From Neomesorhizobium albiziae (lineage in GTDB: Bacteria; Pseudomonadota; Alphaproteobacteria; Rhizobiales; Rhizobiaceae), in NCBI RefSeq assembly GCF_900114255.1, contig NZ_FOSL01000002.1, forward strand, positions 310,001 through 374,000: a stretch of 64,000 nt of DNA, given 5' to 3'. The notes beneath the pieces are model-generated. The model saw nothing but the letters and a program-made list of their open reading frames with translations. It did no database searches and was not told where the DNA came from. Below are positions 31,634-51,622 of the stretch, in pieces; position 1 is the first letter of the stretch; every line of letters begins with the position of its first letter. The position numbers and the translations under genes were made by a program.

Positions 31634-31667
31634 GCCGTCAGCCCCTCCGCGTGGAAGGGCTGACGGC
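31634..31667. terminator. Hairpin between convergent genes
   Basis: A perfect 11-bp stem (GCCGTCAGCCC at 31634-31644, complement at 31657-31667) with a 12-base loop lies between the ends of the convergent ferritin-like and liv binding-protein genes. There is only a weak T-rich tail on the plus strand, so it may act in both directions without a classic U-tract. Confidence 0.6.
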
Positions 31668-31681
31668 TTCGAACCCTTTCG

Positions 31682-32824
31682 CTATTGCAGCGCGCAGTCC
31701 TTCGCATAGGCGTCGGCATGGTCGGTGAAGCTGGTGCCGACGATCTTGTTTGTCAGCACGTCGCCTTCCTTGACCACCTCGCGCACATAGATGTCCTGGA
31801 TCGGGTGGTTGTTGGTGTTGAACTTGAACTTGCCGCGCACCGATTCGAACTCGGCGGCCTTCAGCGCGGCGCGGAACGCGTCGGCGTCCTTGACGCTTAC
31901 CTTGCCGGCGGCGGCGATGATCAGGTTCGCCGTGTCGTAGGCCTGTGCGGCGTAGATCGAAGGCAGGCGGTTGTAGGCCTTCTGGAATTCCTCGACGAAC
32001 TTCTTGTTGGCGGCGTTGTCGAGATCCTTCGACCATGAGGCCGAGTTCTTGGCGCCCAGGGCCGCGTCGCCGATGGCGCCGAGCACGTCCTGGCTGAACG
32101 AGAAGCCGGGGCCCATCAGCGGAATGCCGACACCCGACTGCGCATATTGCTTGACGAAGGCGATGCCCATGCCGCCGGGCAGGAAGAAGAACACCGAGTC
32201 GGCGCCGGAATCGCGGATTTGCGCAATCTCGGCGGCATAATCGGTCTGGCCGAGCTTGGTATAGACCTCGCCGACGAGCTCGCCCTTATAGAAGCGCTTG
32301 AAGCCATTCAGCGAGTCGGTGCCGGCGGGGTAGTTCGGCGCCAGGATGAACATCTTCTTGATGCCGTGCTTCTCGGCATAATTGCCCATCGCCTCGTGGA
32401 AATTGTCGTTCTGGTAGGCGACGTTGAAATAGTTCTTGTCGCACTTTGCCCCTGCCAGCGGAGAAGGCCCGGCGTTTACCGAGAGGTAGAATTTGCCCTG
32501 CGCCACCGCATTCGGCACCACGGCCATGGCGAGGTTCGACCAGATGATGCCTGTCAGGACATCGACCTTGTCGCTCTGGATCATCTTGTCGGCGATCTGC
32601 ACCGCCAGTTCCGGCTTCATCGCGTCGTCTTCGGTGACGACTTCGATGTCCTTGTTGCCGGACAACGAAAGCGCCAGCATGAAGCCGTCGCGCGCGTCGA
32701 TGCCGAGGCCCGCGCCGCCGCCCGAAAGCGTGGTGATCATGCCGACCTTCACCGGTTCGGCAAATGCCATGCCCGAGACGCCGAGTGCGAGCCCGAACAG
32801 GCCCGCCGCAAAAATCTTCCTCAT
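31682..32824 (-). CDS. livK: Branched-chain-type ABC transporter, substrate-binding protein
   Basis: A 380-residue periplasmic binding protein with a Sec signal peptide (MRKIFAAGLFGLALGVSGMAFA, cleavage after AFA). The mature part has the Leu/Ile/Val-binding-protein pattern: VKVGMITTLSGGGAGLGIDARDGFMLAL, the ILAPNYPAGTD hinge and a late IYAAQAYDTANLIIAA. It captures the ligand for LivHMGF. The ATG at 32824 is chosen because the signal peptide starts there. It lies 96 bases after the tryptophan dioxygenase gene on the same strand, which supports an aromatic amino acid or anthranilate ligand. Confidence 0.92.
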   Translation of the reverse strand: MRKIFAAGLFGLALGVSGMAFAEPVKVGMITTLSGGGAGLGIDARDGFMLALSLSGNKDIEVVTEDDAMKPELAVQIADKMIQSDKVDVLTGIIWSNLAMAVVPNAVAQGKFYLSVNAGPSPLAGAKCDKNYFNVAYQNDNFHEAMGNYAEKHGIKKMFILAPNYPAGTDSLNGFKRFYKGELVGEVYTKLGQTDYAAEIAQIRDSGADSVFFFLPGGMGIAFVKQYAQSGVGIPLMGPGFSFSQDVLGAIGDAALGAKNSASWSKDLDNAANKKFVEEFQKAYNRLPSIYAAQAYDTANLIIAAAGKVSVKDADAFRAALKAAEFESVRGKFKFNTNNHPIQDIYVREVVKEGDVLTNKIVGTSFTDHADAYAKDCALQ

Positions 32825-32920
32825 ATTACTCTCTCCCTTTTGTTGCCGTTCCTGCATTTGCACCATGCCTTGGACTGTTTCGCCTCAGGCATGTCCTCTT
32901 GCGGACCGCTTTTCGCGGCC

Positions 32921-33760
32921 TCAAAGTTCTGTACGCAGTTTCCAGAGTTCGGGAAACAATTCCACCTCCAGCATGCGCCGCAGATAGGAAACGCCCGCCG
33001 TGCCGCCGGTGCCGCGCTTCAACCCGATGATGCGTTCGACCGTGGTGACGTGGTTGAAGCGCCAGCGGCGGAAATAGTCCTCGAAGTCGACCAGCTTTTC
33101 GGCGAGCTCGTACAATGCCCAATGCTCGGCCGGCGCCTGATAGATCGCTTTCCACGCCGCCAGAACGTCGTCGCTCGCCTGCCGGCTCTGGCGCCAATCC
33201 GTTCGTTTCGCATCCGGTCCGATATCGAAACCCTCTCGGGAAAGCAGCAACAAAGCCTCGTCATAAAGGCTGGGTTCGGCGAGGATGTTTTCCAGTTCGG
33301 CAATCACCTCTGCGCGGTGCGCATGCGGTTTCAGCATCGCCTCGTTGCGATTGCCGGCGAGAAATTCGATGGCGCGGTACTGCCATGACTGGAAGCCGGA
33401 AGACTGGCCGAGCGAATCGCGGAACTCGGTATATTCGCTGGGCGTCATCGTGCGCAGCACGTCCCAGGCGCTGTTCAGCTGCTCGAAGATGCGGGCGACG
33501 CGGGTCAGCATCTTGAAAGCCGGCTGCAGCTGGTTGTCGCGGATCGCTACCTTGGCCGAGCGGATTTCATGGATGGCAAGCCGCATCCACAGTTCCGACG
33601 TCTGGTGCTGGATGATGAACAGCAGTTCGTCATGCGCGGTCGATAACGGCGTCTGCGCATCGAGGATTTTCTCAAGATGGAGATAGTCGCTGTAGGACAT
33701 GCGTTCCCTGAACGACATCTGGGCGCCCTCGCGCGCCGGATCGTAAGGCTGTCGGCTCAT
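32921..33760 (-). CDS. kynA: Tryptophan 2,3-dioxygenase
   Basis: A 279-residue heme enzyme that opens the indole ring of L-tryptophan to give N-formylkynurenine. Signature segments are [43 protein letters not shown] (distal histidine region), [15 protein letters not shown] and the heme-ligand area [35 protein letters not shown]. Length matches bacterial TDOs. It overlaps kynU by 4 bases. It is the first step of the pathway encoded by this cluster. Confidence 0.97.
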
Positions 33761-34953
33761 GTCACCAGCGCCTTCTTGCGATAATCCGGTGCGTCCCAGA
33801 GCCGGTTGTTGACGACATCTTCGATAATGCCGACCGCCGCGCGCACTTCGGCCTCGCCGATATAGAGCGGCGTGAAGCCGAAACGGATGGAATCGGGCGC
33901 CCGGAAATCGCCGATCAGGCCGCGGGCGATCAGCGCCTGCATGATCGCGTAGCCTTCCCTGTGGCGGAAGGAGACCTGGCTGCCACGCCTGGCGCCGTCG
34001 CGCGGCGAGTTCAGCGAGAGCTCGGGGCAGCGCTTTTCGATCTCGGCGATGAAGAGGTCGGTAAGGCCGATCGACGCCCTGCGGATGTCGGCCATGTCGA
34101 TGCCGTTCCAGGCGTCGAGCGCAGCATCGAGTGCGGCTAGCGCAATGATCGGCGGCGTGCCGACCCGCATGCGGTCTATGCCGGCGCCCGGCCGATAATC
34201 GAGATCGAAAGCAAACGGCGCCTCGTGGCCGAGCCAGCCGGACAGCGCCGGCCGCGCGGCGTCCTGGTGTTCGGGCGCGACATAGATGAAGGCCGGCGCG
34301 CCGGGTCCGCCGTTCAGATATTTATAGGTGCAGCCGACGGCGAAATCGGCCTTAGCGCCGGCAAGATCGACCGGTATGGCGCCGGCCGAATGGGCAAGGT
34401 CCCAGACGGTCAAGGCGCCGGCGGCATGCGCCTTTTCGGTCAGCGCCTTCATGTCGTGCAGGCGGCCGGTGCGGTAGTCCACCTCGGTCAGCATCATAAC
34501 CGCCACGCTTTCGTCGATAGCCGCTTCGACCGCTTCCGGTTCGACGACCTTCAGCGTGTAACCCTTGTCGAGCGATTTCAGCAGGCCTTGCGCGATATAG
34601 AGGTCGGACGGGAAATTGCCGTTGTCGGACAGCACGACGCGGCGCTCTGGATTAAGCTCCAGGGCGGACGCCAGCGCCTGATGCACCTTGATCGACAGCG
34701 TATCGCCCATGACCACCGTGCCTTCGGCAGCGCCGATCAACCGCGCGATGCGGTCGCCGATGCGGCGCGGCTGCAGCATCCAGCCGGCCGAATTCCAGCC
34801 CTTGATCAGCTGGTTGCCCCATTCTGCGGCCATCATGTCGACGACGCGCGCCCTGGCTGCCAGCGGCAGCGGCCCCAGCGAATTGCCGTCGAGATAGATC
34901 ACCCCGTCCGGCATGTGGAACAGCTTTTTGGTTTTCGCGAAATCGCTCATCAT
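33757..34953 (-). CDS. kynU: Kynureninase
   Basis: A 398-residue fold-type I PLP enzyme that splits kynurenine into anthranilate and alanine. The family features are [11 protein letters not shown] near the start, [50 protein letters not shown] with the PLP lysine in YKYLNGG, and the substrate loop [12 protein letters not shown]. The end [16 protein letters not shown] is also typical. The start is one of two adjacent ATG codons that overlap the ligase stop codon; the first (34953) is given. It stands between kynA and the aryl-CoA ligase, exactly as the pathway demands. Confidence 0.97.
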
Positions 34954-36572
34954 GCCTCGCCCATGCGCAGCCTGAAGCGCTGAATCTTGCCCGTCTGCGT
35001 TTTCGGCAACGTGTCGGTGAACCGGACCGAACGCGGATATTTGTAAGGTGCGATCGTCGCCTTCACATGGTCCTGCAGACGCTTTTTCATCAGTTCGTCG
35101 GGCAGCGCGGATTCGACCAGGACCACATGCGCCTCGACGATCTGGCCACGCTCGGCGTCGGCGACGCCGATCACGGCGCATTCCTTGACGTCGGGGTGCG
35201 ACAGCAACGCCGCCTCGACCTCCGGTCCGGCGATGTTGTAGCCCGCCGAAATGATCATATCGTCGGAACGGGCGGCGAAGTGGAATCGGCCTTGTTCATC
35301 CTGCACGAAGGAATCGCCGGTGAGGTTCCAGCCGTTGCGCACATAGTTTTTCTGCCGGTCGTCCGCCAGATAGCGGCAACCGGTTGGCCCGCGCACTGCA
35401 AGCTTGCCGATTTCGCCGCGCGGCAGTTCGTTCATGTCGTTGTCGACGATGATCGCCCGGTAGCCCGCGACAGGCCTGCCCGTGCAGGCCGGAGCCATGT
35501 CGTCCAGCCGGTTGGAGATGAAGATATGCAGCATCTCGGTGGCGCCGATGCCATCGAGGATCGGCTTGCCGGTCTTCTTTTTCCAGTCTTCGAACACCGG
35601 CGCCGGCAGCGTTTCGCCGGCCGAGACGGCGATGCGCAGCGACGACAGGTCGGCGCCCGCGTCCATCGCGGTCAGCATGGCGCGATAAGCGGTCGGCGCG
35701 GTGAAGCTGATCGTCGCTTTATAGGTCTCGATGATCTCGATCATGTTGGGCGGTGACGCGTTTTCCAGCAGTGTCGCGGCGGCGCCGAAGCGCAAGGGAA
35801 AGATCGCCAGGCCGCCGAGGCCGAAGGTGAAGGCGAGCGGCGGCGAGCCGACAAAAACGTCGTCCGGCTGCACGTTGAGCACCTCTTTCGCGTAGGCGTC
35901 CGCGATGATCAGCAGGTCGCGATGGAAGTGCATGGTGGCTTTTGGCACGCCGGTCGTTCCGGAGGTGAAACCAAGCAGGGCGACGTCGTCGCGGCCTGTT
36001 TTCACCGCCTCGAAGCGCACCGGCTTGTTGAGCGCGATGCGGTCGAGCTCGGCGTCGTGATTGGCGGTGCCGTCGAAGCCGATCACCTGCTTCAGGAATT
36101 TGCTTTCCTTGGCGCAGGCGACCAGTTCGTCCTTGATGCGGGTATCGCACAGCGCCAGGCCAATCTCGGCCTTGTCGACGATCTGAGCCAGTTCGCCAGC
36201 GCGCAGCATCGGCATGGTGTTCACCACCACCGCGCCTGCCTTGGTGGCGGCCAGCCAGCACGCAACCATGGCCGGGTTGTTGGCCGAGCGGATCAGCACC
36301 CGCTGTCCCGGCTTGACGCCGTAGTTCTCGACCAACGCATGCGCCAGCCGGTTGGTCCAGTCGGACAATTCCTTGTAAGTGCGCCGGCGGCCGTTGCCGA
36401 TCAGCGCGGTGTTATCGCCGAATCCCTGCTCGACCAGCCGGTCGGTCAGTTCCACCCCGGCATTCAGATATTCCGGATAGTCGAAACCTTCGAGCGGCAG
36501 CTCCGGCCATTCTTCGAACGGCGGAAGATTGTCCCGCGAAAATGTGTCGACATGCCCTGTCGGCCCCAGCAT
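34950..36572 (-). CDS. abmG: Aryl-CoA ligase, probable 2-aminobenzoate-CoA ligase
   Basis: A 540-residue adenylate-forming enzyme that would activate anthranilate to anthraniloyl-CoA with ATP and CoA. It has the AMP-binding P-loop FTSGTTGVPKATMHFHRD, the core motif GATEMLHIFIS, the GDSFVQDEQGRFHFAARSDDMIISAGYNI hinge, and the C-terminal lysine motif KTQTGKIQRFRLR. The whole matches the benzoate-CoA ligase subfamily, not long-chain ligases. Position between kynureninase and the anthraniloyl-CoA enzymes strongly supports 2-aminobenzoate. The gene name follows the Azoarcus evansii anthranilate operon. It overlaps kynU and lies 2 bases after the dehydrogenase gene. Confidence 0.9.
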   Translation of the reverse strand: MLGPTGHVDTFSRDNLPPFEEWPELPLEGFDYPEYLNAGVELTDRLVEQGFGDNTALIGNGRRRTYKELSDWTNRLAHALVENYGVKPGQRVLIRSANNPAMVACWLAATKAGAVVVNTMPMLRAGELAQIVDKAEIGLALCDTRIKDELVACAKESKFLKQVIGFDGTANHDAELDRIALNKPVRFEAVKTGRDDVALLGFTSGTTGVPKATMHFHRDLLIIADAYAKEVLNVQPDDVFVGSPPLAFTFGLGGLAIFPLRFGAAATLLENASPPNMIEIIETYKATISFTAPTAYRAMLTAMDAGADLSSLRIAVSAGETLPAPVFEDWKKKTGKPILDGIGATEMLHIFISNRLDDMAPACTGRPVAGYRAIIVDNDMNELPRGEIGKLAVRGPTGCRYLADDRQKNYVRNGWNLTGDSFVQDEQGRFHFAARSDDMIISAGYNIAGPEVEAALLSHPDVKECAVIGVADAERGQIVEAHVVLVESALPDELMKKRLQDHVKATIAPYKYPRSVRFTDTLPKTQTGKIQRFRLRMGEA

Positions 36573-36574
36573 CT

Positions 36575-37723
36575 CTATCCTCCCGCCAAAACCTGCCGCG
36601 CGATCACGACTTTCTGCACGTCGGACGCGCCTTCGTAGATTCGGAGCGCGCGTATCTCGCGGTACAGGCTCTCCACAATGTGGCCGCACCGCACGCCGTC
36701 GCCGCCATGCAGTTGCACCGCCTTGTCGATGACCGCCTGCGCGCGGTCGGTAGCATAGAGCTTGGCCATCGCCGCCTCGCGGGTCACTCGGCTCGCGCCC
36801 CTGTCCTTGGTCCAGGCGGCGCGATAGACCAGCAATGCCGCGGCATCGACGTCCAGCGCCATGTCGGCAATGTGGCCCTGAACCATCTGCAGGTCGGCCA
36901 TCGGCGCGCCGAACAGTTCTCGCCCCGAAGCGCGCTTGATGCTCTCGTCGAGCGCCCGCCGCGCAAAGCCGAGAGCTGCAGCCCCGACCGTCGAGCGGAA
37001 AACGTCGAGCACAGACATGGCGACGCGGAAACCGTCGCCGGCTTTACCGATCATTGCCGTCGCGGGGACCTCGACATTATCGAATTTCAGCCGGGCCAGC
37101 GGATGCGGCGCGATCACTTCGAGCCGTTCGGCGACCGAGAGGCCGGGCGTATCTGCAGGCACGAGAAATGCCGACAGGCCTTTCGCGCCGGGGGCTTCGC
37201 CAGTTCTTGCGAAAACCACGTAGAAGTCCGCAATTCCGCCATTCGAAATCCAGGTTTTTTCACCGGAAAGCACATAACCTTTGGATGTTTTCCGGGCTTC
37301 CATGTCCATGTTCGCCACATCGGAACCGGAGCGCGGTTCGGAAAGCGCGAAGGCCGAGATCGCCTTGCCGGTGCGGGTCTGCCTCAGCCACTCTTTCTGC
37401 GCATCGTTGCCGAACAGGCTGATCGCGCCGGTGCCGAGCCCCTGCATGGCGAAGGCGAAGTCGGCGAGGCCGTCGTGGCGGGCCAGAGTCTCACGTGTGA
37501 TGCAAAGCGTGCGCACGTCGAGCGGCTGCGGATTTTCCGGATCGACCGCCGTCGGCTTCAGCCAGCCATCGCGGCCGAGCATGGCGACCAGTTCGCGGCA
37601 GGCAGCGTCGATATCGTCATGGGCGACTGGCAAGTTGGCCTCGCACCATGCTTCCAGCCGCTCCGCCAGATCGCGGTGGCGGTCTTCGAAAAACGGCCAG
37701 TTGAGGAAGGAGCGATCAGGCAT
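36575..37723 (-). CDS. Acyl-CoA dehydrogenase
   Basis: A 382-residue FAD enzyme. It shows [21 protein letters not shown] (flavin-binding), [19 protein letters not shown], the [29 protein letters not shown] middle helix region and the C-terminal catalytic glutamate in [15 protein letters not shown]. The family oxidises acyl-CoA to enoyl-CoA and gives electrons to ETF. Here it would act on an alicyclic or ring-opened product of anthraniloyl-CoA; that substrate is inferred from position. The ATG at 37723 is chosen; the upstream frame runs into a palindromic repeat. Confidence 0.93.
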
Positions 37724-37752
37724 GGTGAGCCTCTTGGCCACCTTGCGTTTGC

Positions 37753-37912
37753 ACACCCCCCTCTGGCCTGCCGGCCATCTCCCCCTCAAGGGGGGAGATC
37801 AGCCTGCCGCTTTGCGCTCGCCAAGCTACGACCCTGAAGTGGATGCGAGGACGACGGAGCGAATAATCTCCCCCCTTGAGGGGGAGATGGCCGGCAGGCC
37901 AGAGGGGGGTGT
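37753..37912. repeat. Long perfect inverted repeat inside the catabolic operon
   Basis: Two 47-base arms (37753-37799 and 37866-37912) are exact reverse complements and start with ACACCCCCCTCTGG at the outer ends. Each arm contains smaller palindromes (GGCCTGCCGGCC-like and CTCCCCCTCAAGGGGGGAG). The 66 bases between are unique. The element fills the spacer between the crotonase and acyl-CoA dehydrogenase genes. Similar C-rich palindromes recur in rhizobial genomes (from memory). The stem could stabilise or partly stop the polycistronic mRNA. Confidence 0.85.
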
Positions 37913-37930: not shown

Positions 37931-38740
37931 TCAATCCCCCTCGAACACCGGCTTCTTTTTCTCGACGAAGGCACGATACGCGCGCTCGAAATCCTTGGTC
38001 TTCATGCAGATCGCCTGCGCCTGGGCTTCCGCCTCGATTGCCTGGTCGAGCCCCATCGACCATTCCTGGTTGAGCTGCGTCTTGGTGATGCCGTGGGCGA
38101 ACGTCGGCCCCGAGACGATGCGCGTGGCAAGGTCCATCGCCTCGCCTTCGAGTTGCTCCGCCGGCACCAGCCTGTTGTAGAAGCCCCAGCGGTCGCCTTC
38201 CTCGGCGCTCATGGTGCGGCCGGTGTAAAGCAGTTCGGCGGCGCGCCCCTGGCCGATGATGCGAGGCAGGATGGCGCAGGCCCCCATGTCGCAGCCGGCA
38301 AGCCCGACGCGGGTGAACAGGAACGCGGTCTTCGCCTCCGGCGTCGCCAGCCTTATGTCGGAAGCCATGGTGACGATGGCGCCGGCGCCGACCGCCACGC
38401 CGTCGACCGCGGTGATGATCGGTTTGCCGCAGTTCAGCATCGCCTTGACCAGATCTCCGGTCATGCGGGTGAAGGCGAGCAGGCCCTTCATGTCCATGTC
38501 GACAAGCGGCCCGATGATGTCGTGCACATCGCCACCAGAGCAGAAATTGCCGCCATTGGGCAGGAACACGATGGCATCGACATCGTCGGCGTAGACGAGA
38601 TCGCGGAACGTGTCGCGCAGTTCGGCATAGGATTCGAAGGTGAGCGGGTTCTTGCGCTCCGGACGGTCGAGCTGCACGCGCGCGATGCGGCCTTCGACCT
38701 TCCAGAGGAAATGCTTCGGCTTGAGGCCGGCCAATTTCAT
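37931..38740 (-). CDS. Enoyl-CoA hydratase/isomerase (crotonase) with altered active site
   Basis: A 269-residue crotonase-fold protein. CoA and oxyanion segments are clear: [47 protein letters not shown] and the [30 protein letters not shown] end. Both glutamates of classical enoyl-CoA hydratase appear to be missing: the first site reads GAGAIV instead of GGGCEL, and the second region reads [11 protein letters not shown]. An aspartate lies where dienoyl-CoA isomerase has its catalytic Asp. It may be an isomerase or a ring hydrolase in the anthraniloyl-CoA route. It lies 5 bases after the MarR gene. Confidence 0.88.
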
Positions 38741-38745
38741 GCCCT

Positions 38746-39222
38746 TCACGCCTCGCCCTCCCAATTGCTGCGGAACGATTTCAACATCGCCGAAAGCCGT
38801 CGCGCATCGTCTTCCGCGACGTCGCCCAACAGTTCGCCGATCCAGCCTTCGTGAATGGCCGCCATCGAGCGGAATTCCTCTTCGCCGCGCGCGGTGAGCC
38901 GCACGATCGAGGTGCGGCGGTCGCCTTCTCGCTGCGCGCGGACGACGAAACCGTCGGAGACAAGCCGGTCGACGATGCCGGTGACGTTGCCGTTTGAGAC
39001 GAGCAGGAAGCGTGAGAGGTCGCTCATCAGCATGCCGTCGGGCGCGCGGTAGAGCGCGGCCATCACATCGAAGCGCGGCAGCGTCGAATTGAACTCGCGC
39101 TTCAGCCTTTCGCGCAATTCACTCTCGACGATGCGCGAGGCCCGCAACAGCCGTATCCACAGGCGCAACCGCTCCTTGGCCCCGTTGCCGACCGAGACCG
39201 AAGAAAGCGGCGCACTTACCAT
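38746..39222 (-). CDS. MarR-family transcriptional regulator
   Basis: A 158-residue winged-helix regulator. The core is [74 protein letters not shown], with the recognition helix and the DRR wing typical of MarR proteins. The start at 39222 overlaps the SDR stop by 7 bases. MarR proteins that sit inside aromatic-CoA operons (for example those for hydroxycinnamoyl- or benzoyl-CoA) are usually repressors released by the aryl-CoA. By analogy this one may respond to anthraniloyl-CoA and bind the palindromes at 42321-42354. Confidence 0.93.
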
Positions 39223-39980
39223 GTCTCGCCTCCCGAGACCGAGATCGACTGGCCGGTGATCGAAGCCGCGGCCGCGCTGCACAGGAACAAAACGCTGGCG
39301 GCGATTTCCTCGGGCTGGACGAACCGGCCTTGCGGGTTCGACGCCATCAGGCTTGCACGCGCTTCCGCCTCGCTGCGGCCGGTCCTTTCGACGATGCGGC
39401 CGATCGATTCTTCCAGCATGTCGGTCTCGACGAAGCTCGGGCAGATGGCGTTGACGGTGACGCCGGATTTCGCGGTCTCGGCCGCCAGCGCCCGCGTCAA
39501 GCCGACGACGCCATGTTTTGCGGCAACGTATGGGGCTACGTAGGCATAACCCTTGAGGCCTGCGGTGGAGGCGATGAAGATGATGCGACCGCCCTTGCGC
39601 GCCGTCATGCCGGCAAGCGCCGCCTTCACTGTCAGAAACGCGCCGGTGAGATTGACGTCGATGGTTTTTTGCCAGTCGGCAAGCGCGGTCTTGGCCGCCG
39701 GCGCACTGCCGGCCATCCCAGCATTGGCGACAATGATATCCAGCGGCCCGCGCGCTGCCTCGGCGGTTTCGTAGAGCTTTGCCATCGAGGCTTCGTCGGT
39801 CACGTCAGCCGCGACGGCATGAATGCGGTCGTGAAGCGCCGCAACGGCCTCAAGCGCCGTCAGCCGCCGCCCGCAGATGGTGACGTCGACGCCAGCCTCT
39901 GCCAGCGCCAGCGCGACCGCCTTGCCGACGCCGCTGCCGCCACCCGTGACCAGAGCATGCCTGCCGACGATCATGCTCAC
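39216..39980 (-). CDS. SDR dehydrogenase of the anthraniloyl-CoA cluster
   Basis: A 254-residue SDR with [14 protein letters not shown] as cofactor motif, [12 protein letters not shown], catalytic Ser in [12 protein letters not shown] and Tyr-x3-Lys in [22 protein letters not shown]. It resembles 3-hydroxyacyl-CoA or 3-hydroxybutyrate dehydrogenases of the FabG class. It would oxidise a hydroxyacyl-CoA made by the crotonase. It overlaps the monooxygenase/reductase gene upstream by 4 bases and the MarR gene downstream, so it belongs to the same transcript. Confidence 0.9.
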
Positions 39981-42268
39981 ACCTTGCCCGTCATGACGTC
40001 CTGCCGCTCGGCCAGGCGGTAAAGCTGGTCGCGGCCGGGAAGATAGGGATCAGGCCATTTCACATGGCGGTCGCCGAGCTTTGCCGCCGCATGCAATGTC
40101 CAGTATGGGTCGGCAAGATGCGGCCGCGCCAGGCAGACCAGGTCGGCGCGGCCTGCCATCAGGATCGAATTGACGTGGTCCGGTTCGTAAATATTACCGA
40201 CCGCCATCGTTGCCATGCCAGTCTCGTTTCGGATGCGGTCCGAAAACGGCGTCTGGAACATGCGGCCATAAACCGGCCTGGCGCGCTGCGATGTCTGGCC
40301 GGCGGAAACGTCGCAGATGTCGACGCCGGCCGCCTGCAGCATGCGCGCGATCTCGACGGCTTCGCTTGGATGGACGCCGTCGTCGCCGACCCAATCATGT
40401 GCAGAGATGCGCACCGAGATCGGCTTTTCCCCCGGCCACACCGCGCGGACCGCATGGAAAACCTCAAGCGGATAACGCATGCGGTTTTCCAGCGAACCGC
40501 CATATTCGTCGGTCCGCAAATTGGTCAGCGGCGTGATGAAGGACGACAGCAGATAGCCATGCGCGGCGTGGATCTCCAGCATGTCGAAGCCGCAGCGCTT
40601 CGCCATCTCTGCAGCCGCAACAAATTCGTTTCGCACCCGGTCCATATCCGAGCGGTCCATGGGTTTAGGCGACTGGTTGCGCGGCGACCATGCCACGTCG
40701 GACGCCGCCATGACCGGCCAGTTGCCTTCGGCAAGCGGTGCGTCGCTGTCTTCCCAGCCGACCTGCGTCGAACCCTTCGGGCCGGAGTGGCCGATCTGCG
40801 CGCAGATCTTCGCCTCGGTTTCGGCATGCACGAAATCGACCAGCCGCGTCCATGCAACCTCGTGTTCAGGCCGATAGAAACCGGTGCAGCCGGGCGTGAT
40901 GCGGCCTTCCGGACTGACGCAGGTCATTTCGATATAGATCAGACCGGCGCCGCCTTTGGCCCGCTCGGCATAGTGGGCGAAATGCCAGTCCGTTGGGCAG
41001 CCGTCGACCGCCTTGTATTGCGCCATCGGCGACACCACCACGCGGTTTTTCAGATGCATGTCGCGCAGCCGGAACGGCGCGAACATCGGTGCGCGCGCAC
41101 CGTTGAAGTTGCTACCGGCCTGCCGCTGGAACCATGCCTCGGCGCCGTCCAGCCAGGCCTTGTCGCGCAACCGCAAATTCTCGTGGCTGATGCGCTGCGA
41201 GCGGGTGAGCAGCGAATAGTTGAACTGGACGGGGTCGAGGCTGAAATATCGCTCGACATCCTCGAACCATTCGAGCGAATTGCGCGCCGCCGACTGCAGG
41301 CGCAACACCTCGGTGCGCCGCGCCTCCTCATATTTCCTGAAAGCCGCATCGAGGCTCGGCTCGGAATGTACATAATCGGCCAGAGCGACCGCGCTTTCGA
41401 GCGCCAGCTTGGTGCCCGAGCCGATCGAGAAATGCGCCGACGCCGCCGCATCGCCCATCAGTGCCAGGTTCTTGTACGACCAGCGTTCGCACAGAACCCG
41501 CGGGAAGCTGATCCAGGCCGAGCCGCGAACGTGGGCGGCGTTGGACATCAGCGCGTGGCCGCCGAGATGCCTTGCAAAGATGCGTTCGCAGGTGGCGATC
41601 GACTCTTCTTTCGACATCGACCCGAAGCCGAACTTTTCCCACGTCGCTTCCGAGCATTCGACGATGAAGGTCGCCGTGTCAGGGTCGAACTGGTAGGCAT
41701 GCGCCCACACCCAGCCGTGCCCGGTTTCCTCGAAGATGAAGGTGAACGCGTCGTCGAATTTCTGGTGGGTGCCGAGCCAGACAAACTTGCATTTGCGGAC
41801 GTCGATGTCGGGCTTGAACACATCGGCAAGTGCGGTGCGCGTGCGCGAGTTGACGCCATCGGACGCAACGACGAGGTCGTAGGCATCCATATAGAATTGC
41901 GGCTCGCGCGCCTCCGTCTCGAATACGAGATCGACGCCAAGCTCGCGCGCACGCTTCTGAAGCAGGATCAGTATCTGCTTGCGGCCGATGCCGCAGAAGC
42001 CATGGCCGGTGGAGACGGTGCGCACGCCCTTGTGGACGACGGCGATGTCGTCCCAGTAAGCGAAATGATCACGGATCCAGGCCGCACTGACCGGGTCGTT
42101 GGCCGCGAGATTGTCGAGCGTTTCGTCGGACAGCACAACGCCCCAGCCGAACGTGTCGTCGGGCTTGTTGCGTTCGATGACGGTGACCTGATGCGCGGCA
42201 TCGCGCAGCTTCATCGAGATGGCGAAATAGAGCCCGGCGGGCCCGGCCCCGAGAACCGCGACTTTCAT
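39977..42268 (-). CDS. abmA: 2-aminobenzoyl-CoA monooxygenase/reductase-like fusion enzyme
   Basis: A 763-residue two-domain flavoprotein. Residues 1-380 are an FAD aromatic hydroxylase domain with [36 protein letters not shown] and [28 protein letters not shown]. Residues about 390-763 are an FMN old-yellow-enzyme domain with [55 protein letters not shown] and a late [14 protein letters not shown]. This fusion is found in 2-aminobenzoyl-CoA monooxygenase/reductase, which hydroxylates and then reduces the ring; databases also call relatives salicylyl-CoA 5-hydroxylase. The neighbouring ligase and kyn genes favour anthraniloyl-CoA. It is the first gene of the minus-strand operon; GGGAGGAG lies before the ATG. 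Confidence 0.92.
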
Positions 42269-42320
42269 CGTGCGATCTCCTCCCATGTCTCGACGAGCCA
42301 ACCATCGCACTCGCGACGAG

Positions 42321-42354
42321 ATATTTCAAGCATGAAATTTCAAGATTGAAATAT
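42321..42354. promoter_or_regulatory. Overlapping palindromic operator in the divergent promoter region
   Basis: Two 16-base palindromes overlap by two bases: ATTTCAAGCATGAAAT (42323-42338) and ATTTCAAGATTGAAAT (42337-42352). The outermost arms ATATTTCAA (42321-42329) and TTGAAATAT (42346-42354) also pair. The site is 53-86 bases before the monooxygenase/reductase start and about 80 bases before the divergent hydrolase start, so it can control both. The AT-rich dyads fit a MarR-type operator, and the cluster encodes a MarR protein; that match is inference. Confidence 0.7.
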
Positions 42355-42432
42355 TTTTGACCGAACGCTGCGCGGCGATTGACAGGATGACGGATTTCGG
42401 ATGGCTTTGCCCCGCAAGCTCTGGAGGGGTTG

Positions 42433-43263
42433 ATGATCCATCGCCGCGTTTCGAACTGGGACGACGCCTATTCCAATGCCATCAACATTCCGGGTGGCGA
42501 CCGCTGGCCTGCGGCCTGGATCGGCCCGGCTGAGGCATATCGGGATGCGATGAGCGCCAAGGGCAGGGCCAAACTCGACATTGCCTATGGCGAGCGCGAG
42601 CGTAACCGCTTCGACCTCTTCCTGCCGCAAGGTATGCCGAAGGGGCTGGTGGTCTATATCCATGGCGGCTGGTGGAAAGCATTCGACAAAAGCGTGTGGT
42701 CGCATCTGGCCAGCGGCGCGGTTGACAGCGGTTATGCGGTGGCGATGCCCTCCTACACGCTGTGTCCCGAAGTGCGTATCCGCGACATCACGCGCGAAAT
42801 CGCCAGGGCGGTCGAAACGGCCGCGGAAATGATCGATGGACCGATCATGTTGACCGGCCACTCCGCCGGCGGCCATCTGGCCACGCGCATGGTGACGACC
42901 ACTTCGCCTTTGTCGAGAGCGGTGGCGGGCCGTGTGCGTCACGTCCTTTCAATCGCCGGCCTGCACGATCTGAGGACGGTGATGCGCATTCCCATGTACC
43001 GCGAACTGAATGTCGACGAAGCCGAGGCGCTGGCCGAAAGCCCGGCGCTTTTGTCGCCGATCGAGAACACAAGGCTGACCTGTTGGGTGGGCGCCGCCGA
43101 GCGCGCCGAGTTCATCCGCCAGAATGCGCTTCTCGCCAACATCTGGACCGGGCTGGGCGCCGAGACCGCGACGGTGGAGGAACCCGACCGGCACCATTTC
43201 ACCATCGTCGACGGGCTTGCCGATGCCGCCCATCCGCTGACCAAAACCTTGTTGACAGCATAG
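42433..43263 (+). CDS. Alpha/beta hydrolase, candidate kynurenine formamidase
   Basis: A 276-residue alpha/beta hydrolase. The oxyanion motif is HGGWW, the nucleophile elbow is GHSAGGH, and the last catalytic histidine is in EPDRHHFTIVDGLAD. HGGxW with GHSAGxH is the pattern of the AFMID-type arylformamidase branch. N-formylkynurenine hydrolysis is the one step between KynA and KynU not covered by the opposite operon, and the metal-dependent KynB is absent from the window. Divergent placement across a shared operator supports this role, which remains inference. GGAGGGG precedes the ATG. Confidence 0.85.
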   Translation: MIHRRVSNWDDAYSNAINIPGGDRWPAAWIGPAEAYRDAMSAKGRAKLDIAYGERERNRFDLFLPQGMPKGLVVYIHGGWWKAFDKSVWSHLASGAVDSGYAVAMPSYTLCPEVRIRDITREIARAVETAAEMIDGPIMLTGHSAGGHLATRMVTTTSPLSRAVAGRVRHVLSIAGLHDLRTVMRIPMYRELNVDEAEALAESPALLSPIENTRLTCWVGAAERAEFIRQNALLANIWTGLGAETATVEEPDRHHFTIVDGLADAAHPLTKTLLTA

Positions 43264-43342
43264 GCCGATACGCCGAAGCTTTTTGGTAAAACGGGCGGCC
43301 TCGCGATCCTTGTGCCGCAATGAAATCTGACAGGAAGATGCG

Positions 43343-43579
43343 ATGAGAGCCGTTTTTGTCCAGTTGCAATGCCAGCCCGGATCGACTTACCAGGTCGCCG
43401 ACGAACTGTTCGAGCGCGAGGTTGCCTCCGAACTCTATTCAACCAGCGGCGAGTATGATCTGCTGATGAAGATCTACATCGAGCCAGAGGTCGACATCGG
43501 CAAGTTCATCAACGAGAATGTCGCCAATGTGCCGGGTATCGTGCGCTCGCTGACGACCCTGACCTTCAAGGCATTCTAG
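43343..43579 (+). CDS. Stand-alone Lrp/AsnC effector-binding (RAM) domain protein
   Basis: A 78-residue protein that consists only of the RAM domain of Lrp/AsnC regulators: MRAVFVQLQCQPGS, then EREVASELYSTSGEYDLLMKIYI and NVANVPGIVRSLTTLTFKAF. There is no HTH. Such domains bind amino acids at a dimer interface and form octamers. AGGAAG precedes the ATG, and it lies 79 bases after the hydrolase gene on the same strand. Since kyn genes of other proteobacteria are controlled by a full-length Lrp-type regulator (KynR), a sensor for tryptophan or kynurenine is a reasonable guess. Confidence 0.85.
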   Translation: MRAVFVQLQCQPGSTYQVADELFEREVASELYSTSGEYDLLMKIYIEPEVDIGKFINENVANVPGIVRSLTTLTFKAF

Positions 43580-51429: not shown

Positions 51430-51580
51430 GATGATTCTCGCAAAGCGTTTACTCTCCCTTGTGGGGAGGGTGGCCCGAAGGGCCGGGGTGGGGAGGTCAG
51501 AGCAAGGGTGTTTTAGGCACCTCGCCGGGTTTTCTCCACCCCCAATCCCGGCTCCGAGCTCCATTCCATTGGGTCCGTTA

Positions 51581-51610
51581 GCCGACCCTCCCCGCTCGGG
51601 GAGGGTCGGC
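51581..51610. terminator. Hairpin between the two halves of the sugar cluster
   Basis: A perfect 13-bp stem (GCCGACCCTCCCC at 51581-51593, complement at 51598-51610) with a 4-base loop lies 12 bases after the stop codon of the second Gfo/Idh gene on the minus strand. No U-tract follows, so it may be a dispersed repeat that reduces read-through. The rest of 51430-51622 contains further GC-rich CCCTCCCC/GGGGAGGG dyads of the same kind. Confidence 0.6.
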
Positions 51611-51622
51611 CACCCCTGCGGC

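Follow-up and report, generated by a model that had tools for sequence, protein, structure and literature searches.

A tandem palindromic operator upstream of a predicted 2-aminobenzoyl-CoA pathway operon is very probably recognized by the operon's own MarR-family regulator

The 34-bp element at positions 42321-42354 of the window (the whole 64,000-nucleotide stretch of Neomesorhizobium albiziae DNA analysed here) is, in our view, highly likely to be the operator of the MarR-family regulator encoded in the adjacent operon, to overlap the operon's promoter and to be vacated in response to a metabolite of the encoded pathway. Comparative sequence evidence supports the site itself, its tie to the MarR gene, its overlap with the -35/-10 layout of the first gene of the operon (ACMR) and the fixed spacing of its two halves.

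From these comparisons, we infer a mechanism in which one MarR dimer would bind each of two 16-bp palindromes, the dimers lying side by side with their centres 14 bp apart. The TTGAAA half-site that faces ACMR would be the -35 box of an ACMR-SDR-MarR-ECH-ACAD-ligase-kynureninase-TDO operon, and MarR on the operator would keep RNA polymerase off, thereby repressing its own gene too. The half-site that faces the divergent, formamidase-like hydrolase gene would probably play the same -35 role for that gene. MarR would be released on binding a metabolite of the pathway, most likely anthraniloyl-CoA (2-aminobenzoyl-CoA) or anthranilate.

The tandem operator and the genes around it

The operon lies on the minus strand and begins with ACMR (39977-42268), an FAD monooxygenase-OYE fusion that matches NCBIfam PRK08255 and is probably a 2-aminobenzoyl-CoA monooxygenase/reductase, a substrate that we assign provisionally. 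ACMR is followed by an SDR oxidoreductase (39216-39980; assigned by family), the MarR-family regulator that is the predicted operator binder (38746-39222; Pfam MarR/MarR_2), a member of the enoyl-CoA hydratase (ECH) family (37931-38764; PRK08258), a member of the acyl-CoA dehydrogenase (ACAD) family (36575-37789; below the curated cut-offs), a benzoate-CoA-ligase-like protein that is probably a 2-aminobenzoate-CoA ligase (34950-36689; just under the TIGR02262 cut-off, start uncertain), kynureninase (33757-35181; above the TIGR01814 cut-off, start likewise uncertain), tryptophan 2,3-dioxygenase (TDO; 32921-33760; above the TIGR03036 cut-off) and the periplasmic substrate-binding protein of a branched-chain amino-acid/urea-type ABC transporter (31682-32866; below cut-offs). 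The original prediction had located the MarR ORF within this operon, at the position where it is indeed found. On the plus strand, the divergent gene (42430-43263) encodes an alpha/beta hydrolase, a hormone-sensitive-lipase family member according to NCBIfam, for which the neighbouring genes suggest the role of kynurenine formamidase. From the family assignments and background knowledge of the 2-aminobenzoyl-CoA pathway, we take the encoded route to lead from tryptophan to anthranilate, then to anthraniloyl-CoA and ACMR.

The original prediction of two overlapping 16-bp palindromes was confirmed by pattern search. The ACMR-proximal palindrome, ATTTCAAGCATGAAAT (42323-42338), has one mismatch to ATTTCAANNTTGAAAT, and the hydrolase-proximal palindrome, ATTTCAAGATTGAAAT (42337-42352), has perfect 7-bp arms. 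With 2 bp in common, the two make up an imperfect 34-bp palindrome, ATATTTCAAGCATGAAATTTCAAGATTGAAATAT, in which 15 of the 17 pairs are palindromic (arms of 17, 88% complementary). The element had been described as three half-sites; it actually contains four, which form two dyads, with a third dyad where both abut. It does lie between the divergent genes, as had been claimed, but 'midway' is only approximate: the distance from the operator centre is ~70 bp to the ACMR start codon (42268) and ~92 bp to the hydrolase start (42430 or 42433).

Nowhere else in the 6.27-Mb genome is ATTTCAANNTTGAAAT matched with one mismatch or none; the genome-wide search for further copies that accompanied the original prediction as a suggested check returned none beyond these two palindromes at this level. 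Four further places in the genome have exactly two mismatches, and a reversed-pattern control matched three places at two mismatches or fewer. Within the window, four matches with up to three mismatches were found vs 0.91 expected, and none of 100 shuffles reached four. A chance palindrome was ruled out by the genome-wide uniqueness, the shuffles and the conservation upstream of ACMR. Two other 34-bp stretches of the window, at 31634-31667 and 51579-51612, are equally palindromic (15/17) and of other sequence; these are possibly terminators.

Conservation of the site and its link to MarR

Two samples of ACMR loci were compared. The first consisted of the best 80 of 585 confirmed ACMR stretches, from named genomes. 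The second was phylum-wide: ACMR was found at E 1e-150 in 69 of 398 genomes, the window's own included, and the 68 other genomes provided 70 loci, one of which, L174, duplicates L045. In an untrained test, the window's own palindrome was the sole query against the 450 bp upstream of ACMR. With up to two mismatches, it was matched at 66 of the 80 first-sample loci vs 4 of 3225 control stretches, and with up to three mismatches at 73 loci vs 24 controls. The corresponding counts for the second sample were 25/70 vs 9/1738 and 41/70 vs 33/1738.

A PWM trained on the first sample, with a site threshold of 12 bits, detected a site at 45 of the 56 second-sample loci that have a MarR orthologue within ~6 kb, against a background of 40 in 2272 windows. 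Eight of the 11 loci with MarR nearby that fell below the threshold belong to ACMRs 55-70% identical to the window's; this is the weakest group, in which 6 of 14 loci with MarR nearby reach 12 bits. The palindrome drifts to forms such as ATTTTAGGCTTAAAAT in more distant relatives. When the first sample and the window were scored together, 79 of 81 promoters had a site of at least 12 bits between -200 and -45, a count with some circularity, since these loci had served to train the matrix. The first-sample promoters of L036 and L040 have no site, and both are outside the promoter counts. A palindrome-like stretch also occurs inside the ACMR coding sequence of distant relatives, at about codon 150 (position 10449 in L058, L060, L061, L069, L070, L071 and L073; 10455 in L066), and may just reflect coding conservation.

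Of 76 loci with a contig that extends 1.5 kb past ACMR, 75 include MarR; in the remaining one, L051, a 49% identical MarR lies ~20 kb off on the same contig. Taken alone, this co-occurrence cannot separate MarR from ACMR as the partner of the site. The two genes are apart in genomes G160 and G021, in which MarR belongs to a separate SDR-MarR-ECH-ACAD-ligase operon that is preceded by the site (22.1 and 15.5 bits, respectively); the ACMR upstream region has no site in G160 (-7.1 bits) and a weak site in G021 (14.3 bits). We also compared regions around MarR orthologues with regions around paralogues. The orthologue set contained 15 of the 18 MarR hits at E <=1e-34, including L246 and L247 from training-set genomes; the window's own hit was left out, as were G001 and G021, which were examined separately. 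The 25 paralogue regions were chosen from weaker hits, and in four of them (L268, L272, L280 and L282) the MarR placed there was not recovered by BLAST at 1e-4; the intermediate hit G002:C2 (E 7.6e-23) was in neither group. Within 6 kb, sites scoring 14 bits or more were found in 13 of the 15 orthologue regions vs 4 of the 25 paralogue regions.

Several of the orthologue regions are free of ACMR: the site lies just upstream of the MarR gene in L245 and L253, and precedes an SDR-MarR operon in L248 and L251 (at just 14.5 bits in L251). No site lies within 6 kb of MarR in two orthologue regions, L254 and L255, and the sites of several further regions are weak (14-18 bits), some of them oddly positioned. 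In three of the four paralogue regions with a site, it is a related palindrome adjoining the paralogue itself, probably that paralogue's own operator.

The paralogues concerned are 28-31% identical to MarR, and TGTTCATGCTTGAACT or a similar palindrome (AGTTCAAGCATGAACA) lies just upstream of each, at L260 6417 (C5 of the window's own genome), L266 5959 and L267 6437; with the same TTCA..TGAA core, this is probably a sister operator. The palindrome of L245 (5926-5941) is 17 bp before the start of a stand-alone MarR orthologue (68% identical) whose neighbours resemble, on visual inspection, a TonB-type receptor and an ABC exporter, a layout that suggests autoregulation without pathway genes.

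We consider it improbable that the operator belongs to another regulator encoded elsewhere, for example one of tryptophan/kynurenine catabolism, and that the operon MarR controls something else. The genome does contain several MarR-family paralogues, and a site that reaches 12 bits is retained at 11 of the 14 second-sample loci with no MarR nearby. Of the eight such genomes that were checked, seven carry an orthologue elsewhere (44-50% identical), and G393 has no MarR match at E 1e-6, with a site of 12.5 bits, just above the threshold. In G373, which has no MarR match either, the region upstream of ACMR scores just 1.2 bits, that is, no site; the two genomes thus give one case for the MarR link and one weakly against it. 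Another regulator is at odds with the sites that precede the MarR operon when ACMR is elsewhere (G160 and G021) or MarR orthologues in regions that lack ACMR (L245, L248 and L253), and with the contrast between orthologues and paralogues. Because the site precedes MarR operons without ACMR and tracks the MarR orthologues, the operon MarR is very probably the cognate regulator of the operator, as the original prediction had proposed.

The protein itself has the features expected of the family. It matches Pfam PF01047 and PF12802 above the gathering cut-offs, and its predicted model (pLDDT 86) has a generic MarR fold, with MarR structures as the top fold matches. The recognition-helix residues V75, S76, N77, G78, N79, T81, I83, R86 and L87 are invariant in 58 MarRs.

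Promoter overlap and the second palindrome

The right half of the ACMR-proximal palindrome contains TTGAAA (42324-42329, minus strand), the putative -35 box of the ACMR promoter, in a layout that is conserved in relatives. At a distance of 17 nt lies GATGGT (42301-42306, minus strand), a candidate -10 hexamer with 3 of 6 consensus bases, preceded by a TG at 42309-42308 that would make it an extended -10; the resulting TGC-GATGGT (42309-42301) is 32 nt before the ACMR start codon. Among 79 aligned promoters, the right half of the palindrome is exactly TTGAAA in 62, and a -10-like hexamer (A2 and T6) is exactly 17 nt away in 65; for each of the other spacers between 12 and 23, the count is 8 of the 79 or fewer. 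A G is found at -14 in 69 of these promoters and TG at -15/-14 in 45. A generic sigma-70 scan of 42200-42520 found no promoter and did not report the -10 of the window, so the assignment comes from the alignment of relatives. On this alignment, the ACMR promoter is predicted to be of sigma-70 type, with one half-site of the operator serving as its -35 box. An operator over the -35 box is also a feature of CouR-type control, and is seen here in 65/79 promoters, the window's own -10 being weak. With a half-site in this double role, a MarR dimer is expected to exclude RNA polymerase directly, the mechanism proposed for CouR.

A 34-bp inverted repeat could also fold as RNA, and a terminator, attenuator or riboswitch might be considered in place of a DNA operator. 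We find this scarcely credible: the putative promoter would put the element upstream of the transcript, no terminator-like site was found in 42200-42520 and no Rfam match in 38500-43500, and what is conserved is sequence and spacing, single-palindrome promoters included.

Returning to the DNA operator, the tandem arrangement was surveyed in 151 ACMR promoters (counting L174 and L045, the same locus, twice). In the 68 pairs of sites that reach 12 bits, the spacing is 14 bp in 54, 15 bp in 11 and another value in three, a distribution that supports a strong constraint on how the two palindromes are placed. The second palindrome is kept in all 28 promoters with an adjacent divergent hydrolase gene vs 17 of 51 others. 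The 28 include the window; this conservation count takes in L052, with a 31% identical hydrolase, and omits L005, with a longer gap, and the tree test and -10 analyses include L005 and leave out L052, again making 28. L062 and L075, where the hydrolase gene is ~900 bp away and the second site is missing, are among the 51 others. On the ACMR tree, the association comes down to six independent contrasts, of which about three are concordant, none discordant and three without difference (median p 0.25), so the link between hydrolase and second palindrome is suggestive.

The outer half-site on the hydrolase side, TTGAAA at 42346-42351 (plus strand), is a candidate -35 box of the hydrolase gene, without a convincing -10 in the window. 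Across the 28 divergent promoters, a -10-like hexamer on this side was found in 17, at a spacer of 17 in 12 promoters and of 16 in five; control pairs of neighbouring spacers gave no more than 3 of 28. The window itself falls outside the 17 and has no hydrolase-side -10 at spacer 16-17. The original prediction of an operator shared by both sides of the locus thus holds in part: the second site is invariably kept beside a divergent hydrolase and most of these promoters have a -10-like hexamer on that side, but the window does not. The hydrolase-facing half-site probably plays the same -35 part for the divergent, formamidase-like gene.

Tandem sites also occur beside co-directional upstream genes, namely those for glyoxalase-family proteins (L017 and L037), a pantoate ligase (L048), an ABC ATPase (L053) and an amidase (L070). 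Divergence alone therefore does not explain the second palindrome, and an origin in divergence alone was not upheld, given also that the tree test offers six contrasts. These co-directional cases, the missing hydrolase-side -10 in the window and the few tree contrasts would fit a simpler arrangement, in which only the ACMR-proximal palindrome is the operator and the second reinforces repression of ACMR, cooperatively or by bridging, with no control of the hydrolase gene. This arrangement seems to us rather unlikely, as it leaves aside the 28/28 vs 17/51 conservation of the second site, the hydrolase-side -10 at the two favoured spacers and locus L035, where a site is flanked by hydrolase and ligase genes in divergent orientation.

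The fullest form of the shared-operator model is a composite bidirectional switch. Each outer half-site would be both half of an operator and the -35 box of one of the two divergent promoters, two MarR dimers at a 14-15 bp phase would cooperate across the inner half-sites, and a single anthraniloyl-CoA signal would open both promoters. We put this forward tentatively, as a possibility. If it is true, MarR would be a previously undescribed anthraniloyl-CoA sensor of a tryptophan-to-anthranilate pathway in many proteobacteria.

Candidate ligand, wider occurrence and comparison with known systems

Release of MarR by anthraniloyl-CoA is plausible by analogy with related regulators. Among 64 well-covered loci, 30 lack any local kynureninase, TDO or hydrolase gene of at least 45% identity, and the site is retained in 29 of the 30. 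This speaks against kynurenine or tryptophan as the ligand and in favour of anthranilate, its CoA ester or a later intermediate, although the missing genes may sit elsewhere in these genomes. It is quite possible, though we lean the other way, that the ligand is free anthranilate or an intermediate of the tryptophan/kynurenine route and not a CoA thioester. Some aromatic-catabolism MarRs bind free acids, PMC5487221 giving PcaV with protocatechuate and a structure of HcaR with an unesterified ligand. CoA thioesters, on the other hand, are described as the effectors of CouR, FerC and R. palustris CouR in PMC4737184 and PMC5487221, and the 29/30 loci tell against the kynurenine and tryptophan part of the alternative. 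An invariant Arg50 opens the second helix of MarR, a putative match to the Arg36/Arg38 of CouR; these contacts belong to RHA1 CouR and are reported to be non-conserved in the R. palustris and SYK-6 homologues (PMC4737184). The structure search gave generic MarR folds as matches, which do not discriminate between these ligands.

Beyond the ACMR promoters, an off-locus search found a match with at most one mismatch in 23 of 34 genomes, many of them at ACMR. Among nine off-locus places that were inspected, those in L124 and L128 resemble regulon members and several of the rest fall inside ORFs. In Mesorhizobium (L022 17323, L029 15099, L024 17457 and L128 1501), the site lies between two divergent ORFs. 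On visual inspection in L124 and L128, and by similarity of the flanks in L029 and L024, these ORFs resemble those for an LLM-type flavin oxidoreductase and an HpcH/HpaI-type aldolase; it is possible that these loci are further members of the regulon. In Reyranella- and Rhodospirillales-type loci (L039 4201, L040 4329, L047 4362 and L053 4467), the palindrome ACTTTAGGATTGAAAC (ACTTTAGATTTGAAGT in L053) occurs 5.5-5.7 kb upstream of ACMR at 16.9-17.6 bits, and in L047 and L053 it is followed by an ABC substrate-binding-protein-like ORF.

A full-text literature search with the 12-base core TTCAAGCTTGAA returned three papers, all with unrelated titles. In listings of the PMC literature (PMC9613470 and PMC2572626 included; most subscription journals lie outside it), we found no description of a regulator of the aerobic 2-aminobenzoyl-CoA pathway. 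Our analysis proposes a concrete regulator, operator motif and promoter for this pathway. The motif can be used for regulon annotation in relatives of the organism, and MarR may be usable as a biosensor part for anthraniloyl-CoA or anthranilate.

Several characterized repressors invite comparison by regulator type. FerC of Sphingobium SYK-6, CouR of R. palustris and HcaR of Acinetobacter are aromatic-catabolism MarR repressors with reported CoA-thioester inducers (PMC5487221), and serve other pathways than the one considered here. MarR_73/IadR of Variovorax regulates auxin catabolism, an indole pathway that ends in anthranilate, and is reported in PMC9613470 to bind indole-3-acetate, upstream of anthranilate. 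MarR chains of Variovorax paradoxus, ~25% identical, are among the best 50 of 1772 fold matches to the predicted structure. The closest solved relative by sequence is 3BOQ, a Silicibacter pomeroyi MarR of 34-35% identity, whose records give no operator or ligand.

The nearest parallel by description is CouR of Rhodococcus jostii RHA1, which is not named among the best 50 of the 1772 fold matches or in the MarR sequence hit lists. As described in PMC4737184, CouR is a MarR-family regulator that responds to p-coumaroyl-CoA and binds an inverted repeat over -35 boxes, a single operator spanning both -35 boxes of a divergent promoter pair. Like CouR, the regulator considered here is a predicted MarR-family repressor of an aryl-CoA pathway, with an inverted repeat that overlaps a -35 box. 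Unlike the CouR box, a single repeat (cATTGA--TCAATg, 5-bp spacer) in the same source, the element described here has two ATTTCAANNTTGAAAT repeats in tandem, 14 bp from centre to centre, and its regulator is encoded inside the operon. The type of switch is thus already known, and the tandem MarR operator over a -35 box is most likely a new and well-conserved example of it.
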